Below, in pieces: positions 12,209 to 52,336 of a DNA stretch of 52,336 nt. The notes beneath the pieces are model-generated. The model did no database searches and was not told where the DNA came from. It saw only the letters and a program-made list of their open reading frames with translations. The position numbers were made by a program, and so were the translations under genes. The stretch comes from an uncultured Deferribacteraceae bacterium (GTDB lineage: Bacteria; Chrysiogenota; Deferribacteres; CAMZNJ01), in contig CAMZNS010000024.1 of assembly GCA_947313855.1 (NCBI GenBank), positions 1 through 52,336 on the forward strand, in the 5' to 3' direction. The stretch's first letter is position 1; each line of letters starts with the position of its first letter.

Positions 12209-13852
12209 GTGATTTTTCCCCCGAATATGTTCGCAAGGTTGCAAGTTAATCTTCGCCTCATGGTATCTACTCCAAAAGCGTACGTATTGCTTCTGTTGGC
12301 ACTGAGCCTCTCCAGCCTAGTGCTCTGGTCGTGTACGCCCGTTGCGACGCCTAGTAATGGTGCGTCTAGTGTTAGTATGGCTAATGTTGGTCTGACGAAC
12401 CTTGCTACGACCAACCTTGCTACGACCAGTAACATGGGTGGAACAGCAAACAACGGTCGTGGCTCCGTGGGGTTCTACGATATTGTGAGTAACGCCTCGG
12501 CACCCCTACCACTCACAGCCCTTTTGGACAACACCCCCCCCGTAAACTCGGGCAACAACAGCGATTCGATGCGAGACCTCGCCCAGTCTGAACAACTCTA
12601 CTTCGCCTACCTAAACAACGGCACTATCCCTGTAAGCCTGCACCTGCCTCAGGTTGACGCCGCAACATTCATCTCCGATCCGGAATCGCCACCAAGCGAC
12701 CCAACTATGTTCCCCTCCAACTACACCTACCCCATTAATATCGATCCCTTGGCAAAGAAATATATTAGCTACTACACAGGTCCAGCACGCCGAACATTTC
12801 AGATGTGGCTTGAGCGTTCCAATCGTTATATCGATGTTGTAAAAAATATTCTTTACGAAGAGGGTGTTCCTGTGGACTTCATGGCACTACCGTTTGCAGA
12901 AAGTGGCTACAACACCGAAGCTGTATCTTGGGTTGGCGCCACGGGTATCTGGCAGTTTATGCCCAAAACAGGACTCTACTACGGACTAAAACAAGACTTT
13001 TGGCAGGATGATCGCAAAGATTTCGAAGCCTCAACTAGAGCCGCTGCCAAATACCTGAAGAAATCGTACAAGCAGTTCGGAGATTGGCACCTGTCCACAG
13101 CATCCTACAACGCTGGTCCAGGGAAGATTAGCCGTGCCATATCATATTCACGATCCCGTGACTTCTACGTGCTCAACCAAGGCACATACCTTGCCAAAGA
13201 AACAAGTCACTACGTTCCGAAATACACCGCCCTGCTTATCATCTACAAAAACTACCTAGACTACGGCTTCACCATGCCCAAAACAGAGCCCATGATTTAC
13301 AAAACCATAAATATGCCAAGTCAGGCAAACTTTTATGTAATCGCAGATACGCTGGGGATTAGCGTTGGGGAGATACGTGAGTTTAACCCCGGATTGCTCC
13401 ACCCTGTAACGCCACCGAATTCGTACAACCTACGCATCCCCGTGTCGGTCAGCCAAAAGAACATCAACAAACTTCTGGGGATGAGTCGCGAAGAGCTACT
13501 GCAGTACACCGTTTACTATGCCAACAAAGGGCAGAGCGTCAAATCCATCGCTGATCGCTACGGGGTGTCCATCGCCGAGCTCAAACGTATTAACGCACTC
13601 TCCAGCAGCTACTTAACATCAACTAGACCCGTATTGGTGCCTCTGAAAGGTTACTACGATCGCAGCCTAAACAAATGGTTCCAGCTGAATGTTAAACCGG
13701 GTAACGATCTCTACCTTGTGCGTCGTGGCGACTCCTTGGAATCCATTGCACGTAAGGTAAGCATGAGTGTGGAGGAGTTAATCTACCTAAATGGGGAGCG
13801 GAGTTATGGTGAGATTATTCCGGGGCAACGCTTGGTGATTGGTGCACGTTAG
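12209..13852 (+). CDS. mltD: Membrane-bound lytic transglycosylase with LysM repeats (MltD-like lipoprotein)
   Basis: Periplasmic murein hydrolase that cleaves between N-acetylmuramic acid and N-acetylglucosamine. The hydrophobic N-terminus ends in a lipobox-like WSC (LSSLVLWSC), suggesting lipid anchoring. A Ser/Thr/Asn-rich linker follows, including a duplicated TNLATTNLATT from a 15-bp repeat. The SLT domain has the catalytic Glu in LPFAESGYN (about Glu231), GATGIWQFMPKTG and TASYNAGPGKI. The C-terminal third holds three LysM-type segments for peptidoglycan binding (FYVIADTLGISVGEI, YTVYYANKGQSVKSIADRYGVS, YLVRRGDSLESIARKVS). The GTG start at 12209 is supported by GAGG six bases upstream; ATGs at 12227 and 12260 lack one. 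The stop codon lies inside the first unit of the downstream minisatellite. Confidence 0.9.
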   Translation: MIFPPNMFARLQVNLRLMVSTPKAYVLLLLALSLSSLVLWSCTPVATPSNGASSVSMANVGLTNLATTNLATTSNMGGTANNGRGSVGFYDIVSNASAPLPLTALLDNTPPVNSGNNSDSMRDLAQSEQLYFAYLNNGTIPVSLHLPQVDAATFISDPESPPSDPTMFPSNYTYPINIDPLAKKYISYYTGPARRTFQMWLERSNRYIDVVKNILYEEGVPVDFMALPFAESGYNTEAVSWVGATGIWQFMPKTGLYYGLKQDFWQDDRKDFEASTRAAAKYLKKSYKQFGDWHLSTASYNAGPGKISRAISYSRSRDFYVLNQGTYLAKETSHYVPKYTALLIIYKNYLDYGFTMPKTEPMIYKTINMPSQANFYVIADTLGISVGEIREFNPGLLHPVTPPNSYNLRIPVSVSQKNINKLLGMSREELLQYTVYYANKGQSVKSIADRYGVSIAELKRINALSSSYLTSTRPVLVPLKGYYDRSLNKWFQLNVKPGNDLYLVRRGDSLESIARKVSMSVEELIYLNGERSYGEIIPGQRLVIGAR

Positions 13853-14223
13853 TGACGCGGTTGCGTTAGTGACGCGGTTGCGTTAGTGACGCGGTTGCGT
13901 TAGTGATGCGGTTGCGTTAGTGATGCGGTTACGTTAGTGATGCGGTTACGGTTACGTTAGTGATGCGGTTACGTTAGTGATGCGGTTACGTTAGTGATGC
14001 GGTTGCGTTAGTGATGCGGTTGCGTTAGTGATGCGGTTGCGGTTACGTTAGTGATGCGGTTACGTTAGTGATGCGGTTACGTTAGTGTTGCGGTTGCGGT
14101 TACGTTAGTGATGCGGTTACGTTAGTGATGCGGTTACGTTAGTGATGCGGTTACGGTTACGTTAGTGATGCGGTTGCGGTTACGTTAGTGATGCGGTTAC
14201 GTTAGTGTTGCGGTTGCGGTTAC
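13848..14223. repeat. 17-bp minisatellite, 20 units, starting at the mltD stop codon
   Basis: Twenty head-to-tail copies of GTTAGTGATGCGGTTAC, with C/T and A/G variants. Six units carry an extra GGTTAC or GGTTGC and are 23 bases long. The first unit includes the mltD stop TAG. Every unit contains TTAGTGA, so plus-strand translation is stopped repeatedly. No non-repeated spacers are present, which rules out a CRISPR array. The array fills nearly all of the 416-base gap before the transporter gene. Confidence 0.96.
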
Positions 14224-14268: not shown

Positions 14269-15195
14269 ATGCACATATTCATTATTTTGGCACCCTTGAT
14301 AATCATGGTTACGGTTGGCTACCTATCCGTACGCACAGGGTTCCTCCCCACGAGCTTTTACGATGGTGTTAGCAGGCTCCTCTACTACTTCCTCATGCCG
14401 GGCACAGTATTTTACTCCCTTTGGGTATCGGACATCAACCACCTTGTTTTTAGTGTAAACATCCCCCTGATTTTGCTTACATACGTCATAACTCTCTCTG
14501 TTTCGGGTGGGTTGCTCCTATTCATTCATGGTTGGGATCGTGCCATGCGTGTTACGTTGTGGGTGGGCTCCATTCGCACCAACGCCGTCTACATTGCGTT
14601 CCCCATTGTTTACGCGGCATACGGCGTCGAGGGTTTGTCCATTTTGTCCATTGTGGTGATGATCTCGTCCATCCTGACAAACGTCTATTCGGTGGTAACT
14701 TACGGCATCCTTTTGAACGCCGAGGGCAACATCAAAACGGCTGTTTTGCAAACAACACGCAACCCTATTTTGATTGCGGTAACACTGGGTATTGTGTTTT
14801 CCTTGGCGGGTATCCCCGTGGCAACAATCACGGAAACAACTTTTACCATGATTAGCAATGCCATGTCTCCGTTGGCACTTCTTTTTGTTGGCTCCACCAT
14901 CGACTTCAGCTACATAAAGGGTAACAGTCGTGCCATCTTTTTTGGCGTATTTATGAAAATGGTTCTTTTTCCGAGTACGTTCCTTGTTTTGGCGTTAACG
15001 TTCGATACCCCTTTGAATATTCACCATTTCGTTATTTTGATCATGCTTGCGGCACCTTTATCTTTGGCACACTGCGTTCTCACGTCGAACATGGGTGGGG
15101 ACAGGCGTATTGCTGATGCCACCCTAGTTGTGTCCCTCATCCTTTCTTTGCTGACGTACCCTGTGTGGTTGTATATTATCCATTTGTTTGGGTAG
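14269..15195 (+). CDS. AEC family (auxin efflux carrier-like) transporter
   Basis: Inner-membrane secondary transporter with about ten hydrophobic segments over 308 residues, which is standard for the AEC family. Recognisable parts are the opening LAPLIIMVTVGYLSVRTGFLP, LMPGTVFYSL, the GSIRTNAVYIAFPIVYAAYGVEGL block and the closing MLAAPLSLAHCVLTSNMGGDRRIADATLVVSLILSLLTYPVWL. Bacterial members move carboxylates such as malate or other small anions; the substrate cannot be read here. I start at ATG 14269; a TTG nine bases upstream is possible, and the purine-rich GGGGGTTGG before it is a weak ribosome site. The neighbouring arrays separate it from mltD, and the ATP synthase operon follows 392 bases later. 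Confidence 0.82.
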   Translation: MHIFIILAPLIIMVTVGYLSVRTGFLPTSFYDGVSRLLYYFLMPGTVFYSLWVSDINHLVFSVNIPLILLTYVITLSVSGGLLLFIHGWDRAMRVTLWVGSIRTNAVYIAFPIVYAAYGVEGLSILSIVVMISSILTNVYSVVTYGILLNAEGNIKTAVLQTTRNPILIAVTLGIVFSLAGIPVATITETTFTMISNAMSPLALLFVGSTIDFSYIKGNSRAIFFGVFMKMVLFPSTFLVLALTFDTPLNIHHFVILIMLAAPLSLAHCVLTSNMGGDRRIADATLVVSLILSLLTYPVWLYIIHLFG

Positions 15196-32800: not shown

Positions 32801-33315
32801 CAGCACAACTATGGCAAGCAATGTCGCAATCCATCCTTTACGGACTCATATTCTCCACACTCCTAACACTACTACTGCTACCCGTGCTTTACGGACTTTT
32901 CGAAGGGGACGGTTGGGGCAAACCACTAAGGCTAGGGGGGATGATACGCGACATCATGACAACACTAATACTGTGGTACATCAAGCTCATGAAGTTTGCG
33001 GCACCAAAACTCAACATCCGATCAGCCATGACCGGACTCATGATGCTACAACAGTTTACACGACTCAAAGGGATACCATGGGTAATGCGTATGCTAATGT
33101 TTATCCTGGGAATACCTGCTATGATACTCAACAGAATGATGGGTATGTACAGAAAAAGACGTGCACACACGCGTGCTGTAAAAATTACCAAAAAACGACG
33201 CAACAACCTACACGAAAGGGTGCACAGGGTGATGGAATCGGACTTCAACAAGGACAACAACATACATGGAAACGAATTCTACCACGATGATCCGCACAAC
33301 GATCCCATGAAGTAG
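29863..33315 (+). CDS. RND (AcrB/HAE1-type) efflux transporter
   Basis: Proton-driven inner-membrane pump, 1150 residues, with the usual two-fold repeat of transmembrane bundles and large periplasmic loops. Recognisable parts: MPREATPEIILPYYFISTPYQGANPATVESLITIPIEDAVRGISGI after the first membrane helix; GAMLISLGMLVDNAIVVVENIYRHLRSG in TM4 (Asp399 conserved, the second acidic position is Asn400); FFPESAPDSIVVNIRTPEGSTL; and IISLAGIVVNNGIIFIDYMNQL with RLRPVLLTAITASIALLPF in the second half. About 110 residues at the C-terminus, beyond the last helix, are basic and Met-rich and not typical of AcrB. The drug or lipid handled is unknown, and no outer-membrane channel gene is adjacent. Confidence 0.93.
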   Translation: MILTRLVLKFNKASFLLMIFVLIAGFSTYKNMPREATPEIILPYYFISTPYQGANPATVESLITIPIEDAVRGISGIVKIESKSSQGFSNMLIQFEDTVDQTEVLVDLQAAVDQAQRELPNDLEADPLITEVNINDFPFHNYLISSSVLSEEELYEAANDFRDSLEGVEGVLNVSLAGSSLNTVEIFVDPIRMQQYNISIQDVRTAITNANAAIPGGTVEIGPSGYRISVPNLIDNPEDFNQVPVAYRNNKFIYLADIGSASFAYEDLSSYSRNNLVNTISISVKSRQGTDIVDVTSKMDEASRKFEKSLNNDVEVITLFSTSETIKLFISDLENSIITSLIVLMAVLVLFIGLSSAVFVGFAIPLSLLMSMIAIRLLGYNLSPILLGAMLISLGMLVDNAIVVVENIYRHLRSGKSRYDAVITAVDEVGWPIIASTATTVAAFFPLTFWPGIIGQFMSVFPSTIIVVLIASLFIALTFNPLLCATFMKVPKSQLGNTKEWGLASFYRKSITSLLDNKKRVLLVSGIIFMASFPIFAIGNRGLIFFPESAPDSIVVNIRTPEGSTLNSTNAIVAPIEEYAQKYLGDLSDNVLADIGVRSATVTIFLYGSTDLAYDYNTAIDELRGKFGKIPGARVTVDITSTDGPPTSGGRPFNMRLSGSNNSALADAVVQVEAILATIDGVRDIDSNAEAGIPQATIKVDRERAAMLGFTPAMVASQINQIINPTELDTFRKDGNSYDINLVFPEEYYNDYTKLDNIIITNNKGVGVPISSVATISLEAGEGALRREAYRRVYTVSSNLDRDINTVGSIISELTAELELQPLPQGVTYDFTGEQQDIAEATSFLGKALGVSLMLIFIALLAEFNSFKQGLIIIATIILAIGGVLLGLGIMRGQFVATMTFLAIISLAGIVVNNGIIFIDYMNQLRKRGMPLREAIIEGGATRLRPVLLTAITASIALLPFVFKFTIDFVNLTYIYDSATAQLWQAMSQSILYGLIFSTLLTLLLLPVLYGLFEGDGWGKPLRLGGMIRDIMTTLILWYIKLMKFAAPKLNIRSAMTGLMMLQQFTRLKGIPWVMRMLMFILGIPAMILNRMMGMYRKRRAHTRAVKITKKRRNNLHERVHRVMESDFNKDNNIHGNEFYHDDPHNDPMK

Positions 33316-33360
33316 GGTGCTCAGGGTGCTCAGGTGCTCAGGTGCTCAGGTGCTCAGGGG
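33316..33360. repeat. 9-bp GGTGCTCAG array at the pump gene stop
   Basis: About five copies start directly after the stop codon of the RND pump gene. Its GGTGCT core recurs inside the following ribF gene as GGTGCTGAC. Confidence 0.88.
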
Positions 33361-37077: not shown

Positions 37078-37836
37078 ATGACTCAAAATAAGTGTACTGT
37101 TTTCGTAATGGCTCTGCCATTAGGTGGCGACTTCTCCAACATACCCATCCAGCACAGACGTATCGCCGAAGGGTGCTGTGCTGTTATTGGTGAGGAACGC
37201 TCTGTGGCCATGAAGGTTTTGGCTGAGTTGGGGATGACGAGTAACGTGCGAACGATTCATCACGATACCGACTACACTAGCTCGGAAAGCGACACAAGTA
37301 ATGGTATCCTGAACCTCTACCTACTAAACGAGCACAGCGATAAAAAGTATAAATCTTGGTTGGGCAAGCATATTGCTAAAAGCCACAAAAAGGTTGTGTT
37401 TTTCTCCGACAACGGTACACCCGCCATTGCTGATCCCGATTATGAATTCATCGACAAGTGTTACCGATCCAAGGTGGATGTTATCCCCCTCGCTGGGGCA
37501 TGTAGTATCTCTGCGGGTCTGTCCATTAGCGGTTTTTGTGCAACGTCTTTCACCTACCTTGGGTTCCCCCCCAAGCAACCTCACGAACGCAAAACATTCT
37601 TCAAAGATATTGTGGTCAACAGTCGCACAGTAGTTTTTATGGAGCGACCGTATTCGTTGGACAGGGTGGTTAATACCGACCTGCAGAGCATTGAGAAGAA
37701 GCTCCACCTGCGTAGGGTCTGCATAATCATCGATATTGATGGTGCGAACTACCAGGTGCTACGGGGAACGGTGTCGCAAGTGAAAAAGATGTATGTTAAG
37801 GTGAAGGCACCGTTTATTGTTGTTGTTGAGGGGTAG
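37078..37836 (+). CDS. RsmI-like SAM-dependent methyltransferase (tetrapyrrole methylase fold)
   Basis: RsmI 2'-O-methylates C1402 of 16S rRNA using S-adenosylmethionine. The 252-residue protein has the fold's blocks: VFVMALPLGGDFSNIPIQHRRIAEGCCAVIGEE, VVFFSDNGTPAIADPDYEFIDKC, VIPLAGACSISAGLSISGF, FTYLGFPPKQPHERKTFFKDI and RTVVFMERPYSLDRVV. They match RsmI loosely: the first glycine loop is ALPLGGD rather than ATPIGNL, and SDNGTPAIADPDY replaces SDAGTPGISDPGY. It may be a divergent subgroup. The start at 37078 has GGAG nine bases upstream; two earlier in-frame starts at 37012 and 37063 have poorer sites. It follows serS by 72 bases and ends the rightward group before a large repeat region. 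Confidence 0.75.
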   Translation: MTQNKCTVFVMALPLGGDFSNIPIQHRRIAEGCCAVIGEERSVAMKVLAELGMTSNVRTIHHDTDYTSSESDTSNGILNLYLLNEHSDKKYKSWLGKHIAKSHKKVVFFSDNGTPAIADPDYEFIDKCYRSKVDVIPLAGACSISAGLSISGFCATSFTYLGFPPKQPHERKTFFKDIVVNSRTVVFMERPYSLDRVVNTDLQSIEKKLHLRRVCIIIDIDGANYQVLRGTVSQVKKMYVKVKAPFIVVVEG

Positions 37837-38325
37837 CGTCTGCGTCTGAGTCGACTTGCCCGTCGGGTGTTGGGCGTTGGGCGCGGTGTGGTGACGTGTT
37901 GGGGTGGTGAGCGGGTCACGCGGTTGATCCGGGTTGTGGGTGCGTCGGGGTCGGGTGGCGCGTGGGGTGTTGGGGTTTGGTCGTGGGGTGGCTCGGGGTT
38001 TTGGTGGTTTAGGGGGGTCGCGTCGGCGTCTGAGTCGGCTTGCCCGTCGGGTGTTGGGCGTTGGTCGTGGTGTGGTTAGCGGTTCACGTGGTTAACGGCT
38101 CACGCGTCTGCGTCTGAGTCGACTTGCCCGTCGGGTGTTGGGCGTTGGTCGTGGTGTGGTTAGCGGTTCACGTGGTTAACGGCTCACGCGTCTGCGTCTG
38201 CGTCTGAGTCGACTTGCCCGTCGGGTGTTGGTCGTTGGTCGTGGTGTGGTTAGCGGTTCACGTGGTTAACGGCTCACGCGTCTGCGTCGGCGTCGGCTTG
38301 CCCGTCGGGTGTTGGGCGTTGGTCG
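37837..38325. repeat. Five 84-90-bp direct repeats between the RsmI-like gene and lysS
   Basis: Copies begin near 37837 (degenerate), 38020, 38104, 38188 and 38278. Each contains GCGTCTGCGTCTGAGTCGAC, CTTGCCCGTCGGGTGTTGGG, then GGTTCACGTGGTTAACGGCT. Units are 84, 84 and 90 bases apart; the 6-base difference is one extra GTCTGC. The first copy starts directly after the stop codon at 37836. There is no spacer between units, so this is not CRISPR. Confidence 0.93.
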
Positions 38326-38392
38326 TCAGTCGTCGGTCGTCGGTCGTCAGTCGTCGGTCGTCGGTCGTCAGTCGTCAGTCGTCGGTTGGTAC
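38326..38392. repeat. 7-bp CGTCGGT/CGTCAGT array
   Basis: About nine copies of a heptamer adjoining the 84-bp repeats, in the gap between the convergent RsmI-like and lysS genes. The rest of the gap to 38459 is an ACCAAC-rich remnant. Confidence 0.92.
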
Positions 38393-48421: not shown

Positions 48422-50989
48422 ATGCTTGTACCTATTAAATGGCTAAATTCTTTTGTGGATACGAGGGACATCCCCTTTAACGAACTTGTGGACAGGGTGT
48501 CGGAGTGTGGTAACGAGGTTGACTCTGTTGCCGAATACCCCTGCCAAGGGGTGGTTACCGCCCTGGTCGAAAGCAAGGTGAAGCACCCCGATGCGGACAC
48601 CCTTGCCGTATGCGTAGTGTTTGACGGAGCACAACGACATAACGTTGTATGCGGGGCACCGAATGTTGATGCTGGACAGATAGTTGCCTTTGCCCCTATC
48701 GGTGCGAAGCTGCCTGAGATGGTTTTGCGTAAGGTGAAGATTCGCGGTATCGAGTCCCAAGGGATGATATGTTCCAAGGGTGAGTTGGGGCTCCCTGTTA
48801 CCGATGAGAGCGAGGATGGTATCTGGGTGCTGGGCACACACACACACGACACACACACACACGACACACACACACTCGGCACAAGTAGCAACAATAATGG
48901 CGACGCTGAAACAGTCCCCCTTGGACTAGATGTGGCTGAGATGTTCGCCATCGGCGGTGCGGTGCTGGATATCGGTCTAACGCCAAACCGTGGTGATTGC
49001 TTGAGTATTCGAGGCATGGCACGTGAGGTGCATGCCATATTCGACACACCCATGAAGCATGCCTACGAGGATGTTATTGCGAGTATGCCCGAGGCGTCGC
49101 AAAGTATTGCTGGTGGTGTGCCCACATACACGGTTGAGGGGGGTGCTGCGGATAGGTATCTTCTTGCCAAGGTTGCGGGTGTATCTGTTGGCGAGTCGCC
49201 GACGTTGATACAGGCACGTTTGCATGGTTGTGGCATTCGTCCCATAAATAATATTGTGGACACGACCAATTACGTCATGTTGGAGTTGGGGCAACCCATG
49301 CACGCTTTCGATGCCGACCATATCGAGGGGGATATTGCCATACGCCTCTCAGGTGAGGGGGAGCGGGTTGTAACGCTGGATGGGGCGGAGCGGAGCGTAC
49401 CTGCTGGCGTGCCCGTAATTACCGATGCTAAGGGTATTATTGCTATCGCGGGTGTTATGGGTGGGTTACGCGGATCGGTGTCCTCGTCCACAACGAATAT
49501 ACTGTTGGAGAGTGCCGTCTTCCCGCCAAGCCTTGTGCGTCGTAGTGCTAAGGTTTTGGGGTTGTCCACCGATTCGTCCCATAGGTTTGAGCGTGGTATT
49601 GATATCTCTACAACAGACGTTGCGTTGCGTTATGCTATCGCCCTGTTGAACACGGATGGGGCTGAGTATGCGTACTGCAACAATGCCGGTAGCGAATTTG
49701 TGTTGCCACCCAAACCTGTTATTCAGTTTGACGAGGAGTTTATCCCATCCCTGCTAGGGGCAGACGATATTACTCACGAGCAAATTACCGCCAACCTAGA
49801 AAAACTTGGGTATGGTGTGGCACGGGAAAATGGTCGATACGCCGTAACAGTACCCTATCACCGTATGGAAACAGCACGATACAGTGCCGACATCGCTGAA
49901 GAGGTTGTGCGTTTGTATGGCATCAACAACCTGCCCAACAAACTCCCCAAACTATTTGCCAAGGCGACGACGTTGCCTCAAGGATTCCAAGATCGCCGAA
50001 ATATATCCAGTGCACTGATACACCAAGGGTTCTTCGAAATTATCACCTACCCGTTCATCAAAAGTGAAACGGTAACCCTATTTGCCGAGAAGAGGGGTAC
50101 TGAACTGGAGCCGATGACCTTGCGTAATCCCATATCCGAAGACATGAAGGTGATGCGTACAACCATGGTCGCAAACCTCGTAACAACATTTGTCGCCAAC
50201 TTCAACCAAGGGGTGAGGTGGGGTAAGTTGTTCGAGTTCGGAAGCGTGTACAGGCATGAAAATAATACCACAACGCAAAACAATAACAGCAGTGGCGAGG
50301 GGATGAAGGTCGACGAAGAACCGCGGTTGGGACTACTCGCATACGGCGACGAACACTTTGCCACATACCCCTTTACCAACAAAGATACCAAAACTGAAGT
50401 ACAGTTCTTTGTCCTCAAAGGGGTTGTAACAAGGGTGCTTGCTGCCCTCGGAGCTGATGCTGAATTCAACACAACAGACACACCCGATTTCCTACACCCC
50501 GGTCGGGCATGCAATGTTATCCTGAAAGGGAAGTTCCCCGGTGGGAAAGAGGGAGTCGTGATCGGTATCATTGGCGAACTGCACCCTAATGTTGCCAAAA
50601 AATGCGATGCACCCGACGGAGTTGTTGTTGCAGAAATCTACACACACCTTGCAACATCACTAATAAAAAAACGGGTGCCAAAATTCAAAACATTCCTGCG
50701 AACACCAGATATTCGCAAAGACATAACCGTTGTTGTGGATGAAACAACACCCTTCGGCGACCTCGTACAAACCATATCCAAGGTGAAGCTGGGGAACGGA
50801 CTCAAAGTGGTGGACGTGTATTTGATCGACGAATATCGCAACGAAAAAGTATTGCAAGGGAAACGTTCCATTACAATAAGGGTGATGCTGAACGCGAGGG
50901 AATCCACGCCAACGGATACACACCTTAGCGAAGGGATGGACAGGGTTGTGCAGGCTCTGGCAGACAGCAATAACGCTGTGCTACGGTAG
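48422..50989 (+). CDS. pheT: Phenylalanyl-tRNA synthetase beta subunit
   Basis: Recognises tRNA-Phe and edits mischarged tyrosine. The 855 residues contain the tRNA-binding OB domain (VVTALVESKVKHPDADTLAVCVVFDGAQRHNVVCGAPNVDAGQIVAFAPIGAKLP), the B1-B5 region with MICSKGELGLP, LTPNRGDCLSIRGMAREV, RPINNIVDTTNYVMLELGQPMHAFDADHI, SHRFERGID, the catalytic-like domain (YPFIKSETV, LRNPISEDMKVMRTTMVANLV) and the C-terminal anticodon-binding fold (FKTFLRTPDIRKDITVVVDETTPFGDLVQTI). At residues about 138-156 a histidine/threonine tract (THTHDTHTHDTHTLGT) is inserted between the OB and B domains. GGAGG in the last pheS codons serves as its ribosome site. The stop lies in a 10-bp repeat. Confidence 0.96.
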   Translation: MLVPIKWLNSFVDTRDIPFNELVDRVSECGNEVDSVAEYPCQGVVTALVESKVKHPDADTLAVCVVFDGAQRHNVVCGAPNVDAGQIVAFAPIGAKLPEMVLRKVKIRGIESQGMICSKGELGLPVTDESEDGIWVLGTHTHDTHTHDTHTLGTSSNNNGDAETVPLGLDVAEMFAIGGAVLDIGLTPNRGDCLSIRGMAREVHAIFDTPMKHAYEDVIASMPEASQSIAGGVPTYTVEGGAADRYLLAKVAGVSVGESPTLIQARLHGCGIRPINNIVDTTNYVMLELGQPMHAFDADHIEGDIAIRLSGEGERVVTLDGAERSVPAGVPVITDAKGIIAIAGVMGGLRGSVSSSTTNILLESAVFPPSLVRRSAKVLGLSTDSSHRFERGIDISTTDVALRYAIALLNTDGAEYAYCNNAGSEFVLPPKPVIQFDEEFIPSLLGADDITHEQITANLEKLGYGVARENGRYAVTVPYHRMETARYSADIAEEVVRLYGINNLPNKLPKLFAKATTLPQGFQDRRNISSALIHQGFFEIITYPFIKSETVTLFAEKRGTELEPMTLRNPISEDMKVMRTTMVANLVTTFVANFNQGVRWGKLFEFGSVYRHENNTTTQNNNSSGEGMKVDEEPRLGLLAYGDEHFATYPFTNKDTKTEVQFFVLKGVVTRVLAALGADAEFNTTDTPDFLHPGRACNVILKGKFPGGKEGVVIGIIGELHPNVAKKCDAPDGVVVAEIYTHLATSLIKKRVPKFKTFLRTPDIRKDITVVVDETTPFGDLVQTISKVKLGNGLKVVDVYLIDEYRNEKVLQGKRSITIRVMLNARESTPTDTHLSEGMDRVVQALADSNNAVLR
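48836..48875 (+). repeat. ACACAC-rich repeat inside pheT coding for Thr-His-Asp
   Basis: Units of CACACGACA keep the frame and give THTHDTHTHDTHT, probably in a surface loop between domains. Confidence 0.82.
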
Positions 50990-51019
50990 TGCGTGGTAGT
51001 GCGTGGTAGTGCGTGGCTG
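50984..51019. repeat. 10-bp array starting at the pheT stop codon
   Basis: Three and a half copies of GGTAGTGCGT. The first contains the pheT stop TAG, and the following copies carry further TAG triplets. Confidence 0.85.
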
Positions 51020-51130
51020 TGCCCCTACCTATCCGCAGGCACTAGGAACAAAAACACCCACACCCTCAAACTATGGGCAAATATTGCCCCCGAGGGGTGG
51101 GTGCTAGGTACTGTTCTGACATGAAAAAAG

Positions 51131-52192: not shown

Positions 52193-52336
52193 TGCACGCA
52201 CGGCAACGCACGCACGGCACGGCAACACAACGCACGCACGGTAATGCACGCACGGCACGGCAATGCAACGCACGCACGGTAATGCACGCACGGCACGGCA
52301 ACGCAACGCACGCACGGCAATGCACGGCACGGCAAC
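52193..52336. repeat. GCACGCACGGCA array running to the window end
   Basis: Units of ACGCACGCACGGCACGGCA and AACGCACGCACGGTAATGC, combining 4-, 5- and 10-base steps, begin right after the DJ-1 gene stop and continue past the window. Short open frames on the minus strand here (Cys/Arg/Ala-rich) are repeat shadows. Confidence 0.93.

Follow-up and report, generated by a model that had tools for sequence, protein, structure and literature searches.

A stop-straddling minisatellite downstream of mltD among the abundant tandem arrays of a vent shrimp gut symbiont genome

The mltD locus and other arrays of the window

The stretch of DNA analysed here, called the window (52,336 nucleotides), is contig 24 of the 49 that form a metagenome-assembled genome (MAG) of 1.34 Mb and 90.7% completeness, named G000. 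Its only same-genus relative, G001 (86% complete), matches CAMZNJ010000033.1 of M_SnakePit_MAG_00002, given in main-text passages of PMC9636832 as Candidatus Rimicarispirillum nautilei, which inhabits the midgut of the vent shrimp Rimicaris exoculata as a symbiont. The host of the array described below is a reduced-genome gut symbiont of the genus Candidatus Rimicarispirillum (Deferribacterota) from deep-sea vent shrimp.

A tandem array lies 3' of an mltD-like gene, and a permease gene starts about 45 bp 3' of the array end (Table 1). TRF called the array at 13846-14215, with a period of 17, about 21 copies and a score of 406-415. Counting the motif TTAGTG gave exactly 20 head-to-tail units from 13849 to about 14221, although the copy number of this ~370 bp array is uncertain if the window comes from the MAGs of PMC9636832, which were assembled with MEGAHIT from 2 x 150 bp Illumina reads. 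The array consists of contiguous copies of one unit, whose length falls in the roughly 6-100 bp of minisatellites, and a preliminary description correctly recognized 20 repeats of a 17-bp unit beginning at the mltD stop. There are 14 units of 17 bp, five of 23 bp and a cut last unit. The 23-bp units correspond to the 17-bp unit plus an extra hexamer (GGTTAC or GGTTGC), also found in the cut unit; the six insert-bearing units first reported are therefore a fair count, composed of five full units plus the cut one. The motif TTAGTGA, which had been attributed to every unit, is present in 18 of the 20, but the other two have TTAGTGT.

As first described, the mltD TAG (13850-13852) is included in unit 1, and the array begins within the last codon of the gene. 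This stop is real, since the sister species G001 terminates mltD at the same codon (GCACGC TAG); the MltD proteins share 96% identity over residues 95-547. Because 17 is not a multiple of three, TAG and TGA recur out of frame, and stop codons are found in the three frames of the array (13, 12 and 12). A CRISPR array was rejected, as the units adjoin without spacers and the Rfam search gave no match. An RNA element was also rejected: in addition to the empty Rfam search, no terminator-like site was found in the array, and its RNA fold was only slightly more stable than shuffled sequences (z -1.67), a weak signal. The array probably has no function of its own.

Table 1. Genes and tandem arrays of the window discussed in the text.
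Feature	Position	Strand	Comment
mltD-like membrane-bound lytic murein transglycosylase, SLT domain and two LysM	12209..13852	+	C-terminus and TAG conserved in sister species
17-bp minisatellite, consensus ACGTTAGTGATGCGGTT, 20 units, five of 23 bp	13846..14223	+	mltD stop spanned by the first unit
AEC-family (auxin efflux carrier / Mem_trans) permease	14269..15195	+	Likely ATG 14269; longest ORF from TTG 14260
8-bp array	33316..33358		Immediately follows an RND permease gene (stop at 33315)
84-bp unit array	37837..38326		Diverged first copy adjoins TAG 37834-37836
10-bp array	50985..51022		Overlaps the pheT stop codon (50987-50989)
19/38-bp array	52194..52334		Preceded by a DJ-1/PfpI gene, whose stop is 3 bp away; reaches the contig end

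Four other arrays of the window had been placed inside the stop codon of pheT or right after a stop, and their positions held on inspection. The gene upstream of the 84-bp array encodes a TP_methylase (16S rRNA 2'-O-methyltransferase-like); the TRF call of this array starts only at 37942 and is preceded by the diverged first copy, from 37837. The contig itself terminates within the last array (52194-52336), suggesting that arrays probably break the assembly and that some are perhaps longer than shown.

Distribution of arrays in two sister genomes

About half of each of the two incomplete MAGs was covered (620 kb of G000, with five contigs given as N among them, and 513 kb of G001), together with several hundred kb of class relatives. 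Genes were called by a simple in-frame hexamer model, so that gene starts are approximate, and arrays were called with TRF using block-shuffled sequence as control. Tandem repeats are not discussed in the main-text passages searched of PMC9636832 or PMC10344455, both on these symbionts, and no prior genome-wide test relating arrays to stop codons in bacteria was found in the mostly open-access literature searched.

Array density was 52.8 per 100 kb in G000 and 53.2 in G001, compared with 1.0 and 0.8 in block-shuffled sequence, indicating that the arrays are not due to chance; they occupy 5.2% and 4.4% of the bases, respectively. Most class relatives with dnaQ had 0-27 arrays per 100 kb, and the 20 kb sample of one dnaQ-positive genome (G009) was as array-dense as the window. 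Strong arrays reached 24.0 and 22.5 per 100 kb in G000 and G001, versus 0-1.5 in the better-sampled dnaQ-positive relatives.

The distribution follows gene orientation. The array share of intergenic bases in G000 and G001 was 42% and 49% in convergent gaps, 17% and 15% in co-directional gaps, and 5% and 7% in divergent gaps. Within co-directional gaps, arrays closer to the upstream stop outnumbered those closer to the downstream start (72 vs 34 in G000, p = 0.0003; 49 vs 21 in G001, p = 0.001). Starts within 5 bp of the stop were found for 26 of 106 arrays in G000 and 18 of 70 in G001, while only 3/106 and 0/70 ended no more than 5 bp from the next start. If arrays were placed at random within the gap, 7.1 stop-adjacent starts would be expected for G000, with none of 4000 simulations reaching 26, and 6.4 for G001. 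The enrichment of array starts at stops that the preliminary description proposed to look for across the genome is thus present in both species. Gene 3' ends without a stop codon also carry arrays: an array lay within 30 bp of the 3' end of 8 of 36 tRNA genes, and of the 5' end of 1 of 36. A minisatellite was seen directly 3' of the tRNA-Cys gene of G000 (L002 1420-1770, C17), and G001 also has an array, 23 bp downstream of its tRNA-Cys gene.

Arrays inside genes are spread along the gene length and obey a different rule. Their best period was divisible by three in 127 of 136 cases in G000 and 134 of 138 in G001 (93-97%), in contrast with 50 of 155 and 48 of 113 between-gene arrays (Fisher p about 1e-29 and 1e-24, respectively). 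Together with the gradient from convergent to co-directional to divergent gaps, this nearly constant conservation of the frame gives good support to the original suggestion that arrays at 3' ends do no harm. Control of unit composition by replication strand or gene direction was considered and rejected, the correlations being weak (Spearman 0.19-0.35).

The reading frame also bears on whether the repeats could be false or mis-sized products of short-read metagenomic assembly. The 2 x 150 bp Illumina reads and MEGAHIT assembly given in main-text passages of PMC9636832 would favor such an artefact, as would the 9 of 60 sampled contig ends that lie within 15 bp of an array. However, an artefact would ignore reading frames, which the arrays respect, and two separately assembled species concur on the density, the orientation gradient and the in-frame rule, so we give this explanation almost no credence.

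Selection and nucleation at gene 3' ends

Arrays sit at gene 3' ends, and a null model was used in which seeds are drawn with equal chance at every position where the CDS stays intact, with 20-40 bp before the next gene kept free. For starts within 5 bp of stops in co-directional gaps, this model predicts 18.7-24.9 in G000 (26 observed) and 17.5-23.2 in G001 (18 observed). Convergent gaps showed no clear excess either (10-12 expected and 13 observed in G000; 13-14 and 14 in G001). When the reserve before the next gene was removed, the expectation for G000 fell to 14.6-18.1 and an excess remained. In the narrower window of -3 to +3 bp in co-directional gaps, the 14 starts of G000 exceed the 5-8.5 expected, a residual that the null does not explain and that was not repeated in G001, with 4 observed versus 5-9 expected.

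These counts are relevant to the idea that arrays are actively nucleated by stop codons or the 3' ends of genes, with R-loops, transcription-termination conflicts or broken strands where transcripts end as possible mechanisms. The 26/106 starts versus the 7 of naive placement, the residual -3 to +3 bp excess in G000, the arrays at tRNA 3' ends and the existence of seeds that straddle stops would all agree with nucleation. Nevertheless, the counts of the two species are explained once the CDS-intact null includes a small 5' reserve, convergent gaps lack a clear excess, and in-frame arrays arise freely within genes, all along their length. We therefore consider active nucleation unlikely. A stop codon is not required for an array, since arrays also follow tRNA 3' ends; the in-gene arrays with periods divisible by three, the CDS-intact null and the tRNA arrays point to selection on the allowed places rather than nucleation, and stop codons need not be special seeding sites. 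The proposal that arrays grow outward from the 3' ends of genes stands only in part: some seeds do straddle a stop, but no special seeding there is needed to obtain similar counts.

Comparison of 110 orthologous gene ends with the same neighbor orientation in G000 and G001 showed arrays in both species at 26, in one species at 29 and in neither at 55. Among arrays starting within 10 bp of a stop, 4 were common to both species and 24 were present in one only, and their units usually differ. Turnover is fast, as orthologous gene ends bear different arrays in the two species. The same comparison bears on a possible functional role of the arrays at 3' ends, for example in insulating or terminating transcription, in stabilizing mRNA or as all-frame safety stops. 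The strong 3' bias, the stops in all three frames of the mltD array and its slightly stable fold could be read in favor of such a role, but the sequence varies by locus and, at a given gene end, from one sister species to the other, 55 of the 110 orthologous gaps are array-free in both species, and the mltD array lacks both a terminator-like site and an Rfam match, making this reading very improbable.

Array-free orthologues were used to recognize seeds only in clear single cases, since intergenic DNA is too diverged and statistics over all arrays would be biased towards coding seeds. In gene 1 of locus L108 the gene tail (...CCGAACTGTAA) is repeated downstream, and gene 4 of L147 also has a clear stop-derived seed; both orthologues are array-free. 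The 3' end of mltD carries an array in each species, and the units are not the same. In the Snake Pit genome (G001), the last part of the array is a complete copy of the gene tail, GCACGCTAGTGATACGTTGAC, which abuts the conserved flank; this arrangement fits an origin by stop-straddling duplication, and the two mltD arrays may have arisen once or twice. In these cases (mltD in both species, L108 gene 1 and L147 gene 4), arrays clearly grew from a segment straddling the stop.

The mltD array is best regarded as one scar of a genome-wide process of minisatellite birth and fast turnover filtered by selection, a reading to which we assign a probability of about 0.75. A segment straddling the mltD stop (about ACGTTAGTGA...) would have been duplicated in tandem and would then have grown by slipped-strand replication or unequal exchange. 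When a duplication spans a stop codon, the stop stays in place in the first copy and the encoded protein does not change; MltD is accordingly unaffected, with the extra copies falling in the untranslated 3' portion of its mRNA. Selection weeds out arrays that disrupt reading frames, promoters or ribosome-binding sites, and the statistics show the survivors accumulating after genes.

Missing proofreading and known repeat-rich genomes

Both genomes encode MutS, MutL, RecJ, RecG, PolA, ExoVII and RecA, so that loss of mismatch repair, or of RecJ, ExoVII, RecG, PolA or RecA, was rejected as the cause of the arrays. A clear SbcC homologue is also present; the SbcC-like protein of G000 (C34:18472-21846) matches TIGR00618 far better than the other searched class relatives do, and possibly has a different origin. 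In contrast, searches for DnaQ (TIGR00573) and the DnaQ/RNase_T family (PF00929) gave no match in G000 or G001, and DnaQ is likely absent from both genomes, which are 90.7% and 86% complete. One to four proteins of this family were found in 32 of the 39 searched class genomes. According to a review (PMC3942315), single-strand exonucleases keep the tandem repeats of E. coli stable.

A DnaQ-family exonuclease was also undetected in the genomes of another genus (f7 g12) and in G028. The four dnaQ-less genomes of f7 g12 had 6.4 strong arrays per 100 kb, compared with 1.2 and 0 in genera of its family that have dnaQ, and arrays made up 22% of the bases in convergent, 11% in co-directional and 0.5% in divergent gaps. 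On the other hand, G028, with neither DnaQ nor MutS nor MutL above the cut-off, had no strong arrays in 113 kb, which indicates that dnaQ loss is a candidate contributor and not a sufficient cause. The G028 sample has few tandem repeats and a coding density of 94%. Small samples are noisy, as illustrated by the dnaQ-positive G009 and G004, with 7.5 strong arrays per 100 kb in 40 kb. Absence of DnaQ-family 3'-5' exonuclease proofreading is a plausible but unproven explanation, and the best candidate, for the high birth rate of arrays.

Long open frames were observed in G000 for MutS (925 aa), RecG (867), an Mfd-like protein (1227), PolA (890) and RecA (377), and in the window for PheT (855) and RibF (431). 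The open frames of several conserved proteins exceed those of relatives or the length of family models, which agrees with an extension of proteins by in-frame tandem repeats in a reduced genome.

The closest parallel is Portiera aleyrodidarum of Bemisia and Singhiella whiteflies, a dnaQ-less endosymbiont with repeat-rich, expanded intergenic DNA (PMC7821994). As in Portiera, this is a reduced animal symbiont without dnaQ in which many repeats are concentrated between genes: DnaQ was undetected in G000 and G001, and their tandem repeats are far above those of relatives and mostly intergenic. Portiera has mainly microsatellites, direct repeats and rearrangements, and a massive loss of replication and repair genes, whereas G000 and G001 have mostly minisatellites (5-40+ bp), keep MutS and MutL, and show many in-frame arrays within genes and a strong measured 3' bias.

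The MIRU/VNTR loci of Mycobacterium are intergenic minisatellites that can overlap neighboring stop codons, and MIRUs form one dispersed sequence family. G000 likewise has minisatellites between genes that can overlap the stop codons of adjacent genes; unlike in MIRUs, the unit is a different one at every locus of G000 and G001 and seems to stem from the surrounding sequence. A MIRU-type dispersed family was rejected for the mltD array, whose unit is found in just four other places, as partial matches of 71-80% identity.

The interest of the mltD array lies in the genome-wide process that it reflects and in a possible link to missing proofreading. What appeared as a single-repeat anecdote becomes a measured rule, in which, wherever repeats are born at a high rate, the surviving arrays map the insertion-tolerant positions of a bacterial genome, namely gene 3' ends and in-frame sites within genes. 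Alongside Portiera, the genus would also provide another symbiont lineage, unrelated to the first, that combines an absence of DnaQ with tandem-repeat overload in spite of retained mismatch repair genes, making the cause testable. More tentatively, loss of proofreading may repeatedly turn symbiont genomes into minisatellite generators, in which stop-straddling duplications rewrite many gene 3' ends and in-frame repeats lengthen proteins, all within the divergence of two sister species.
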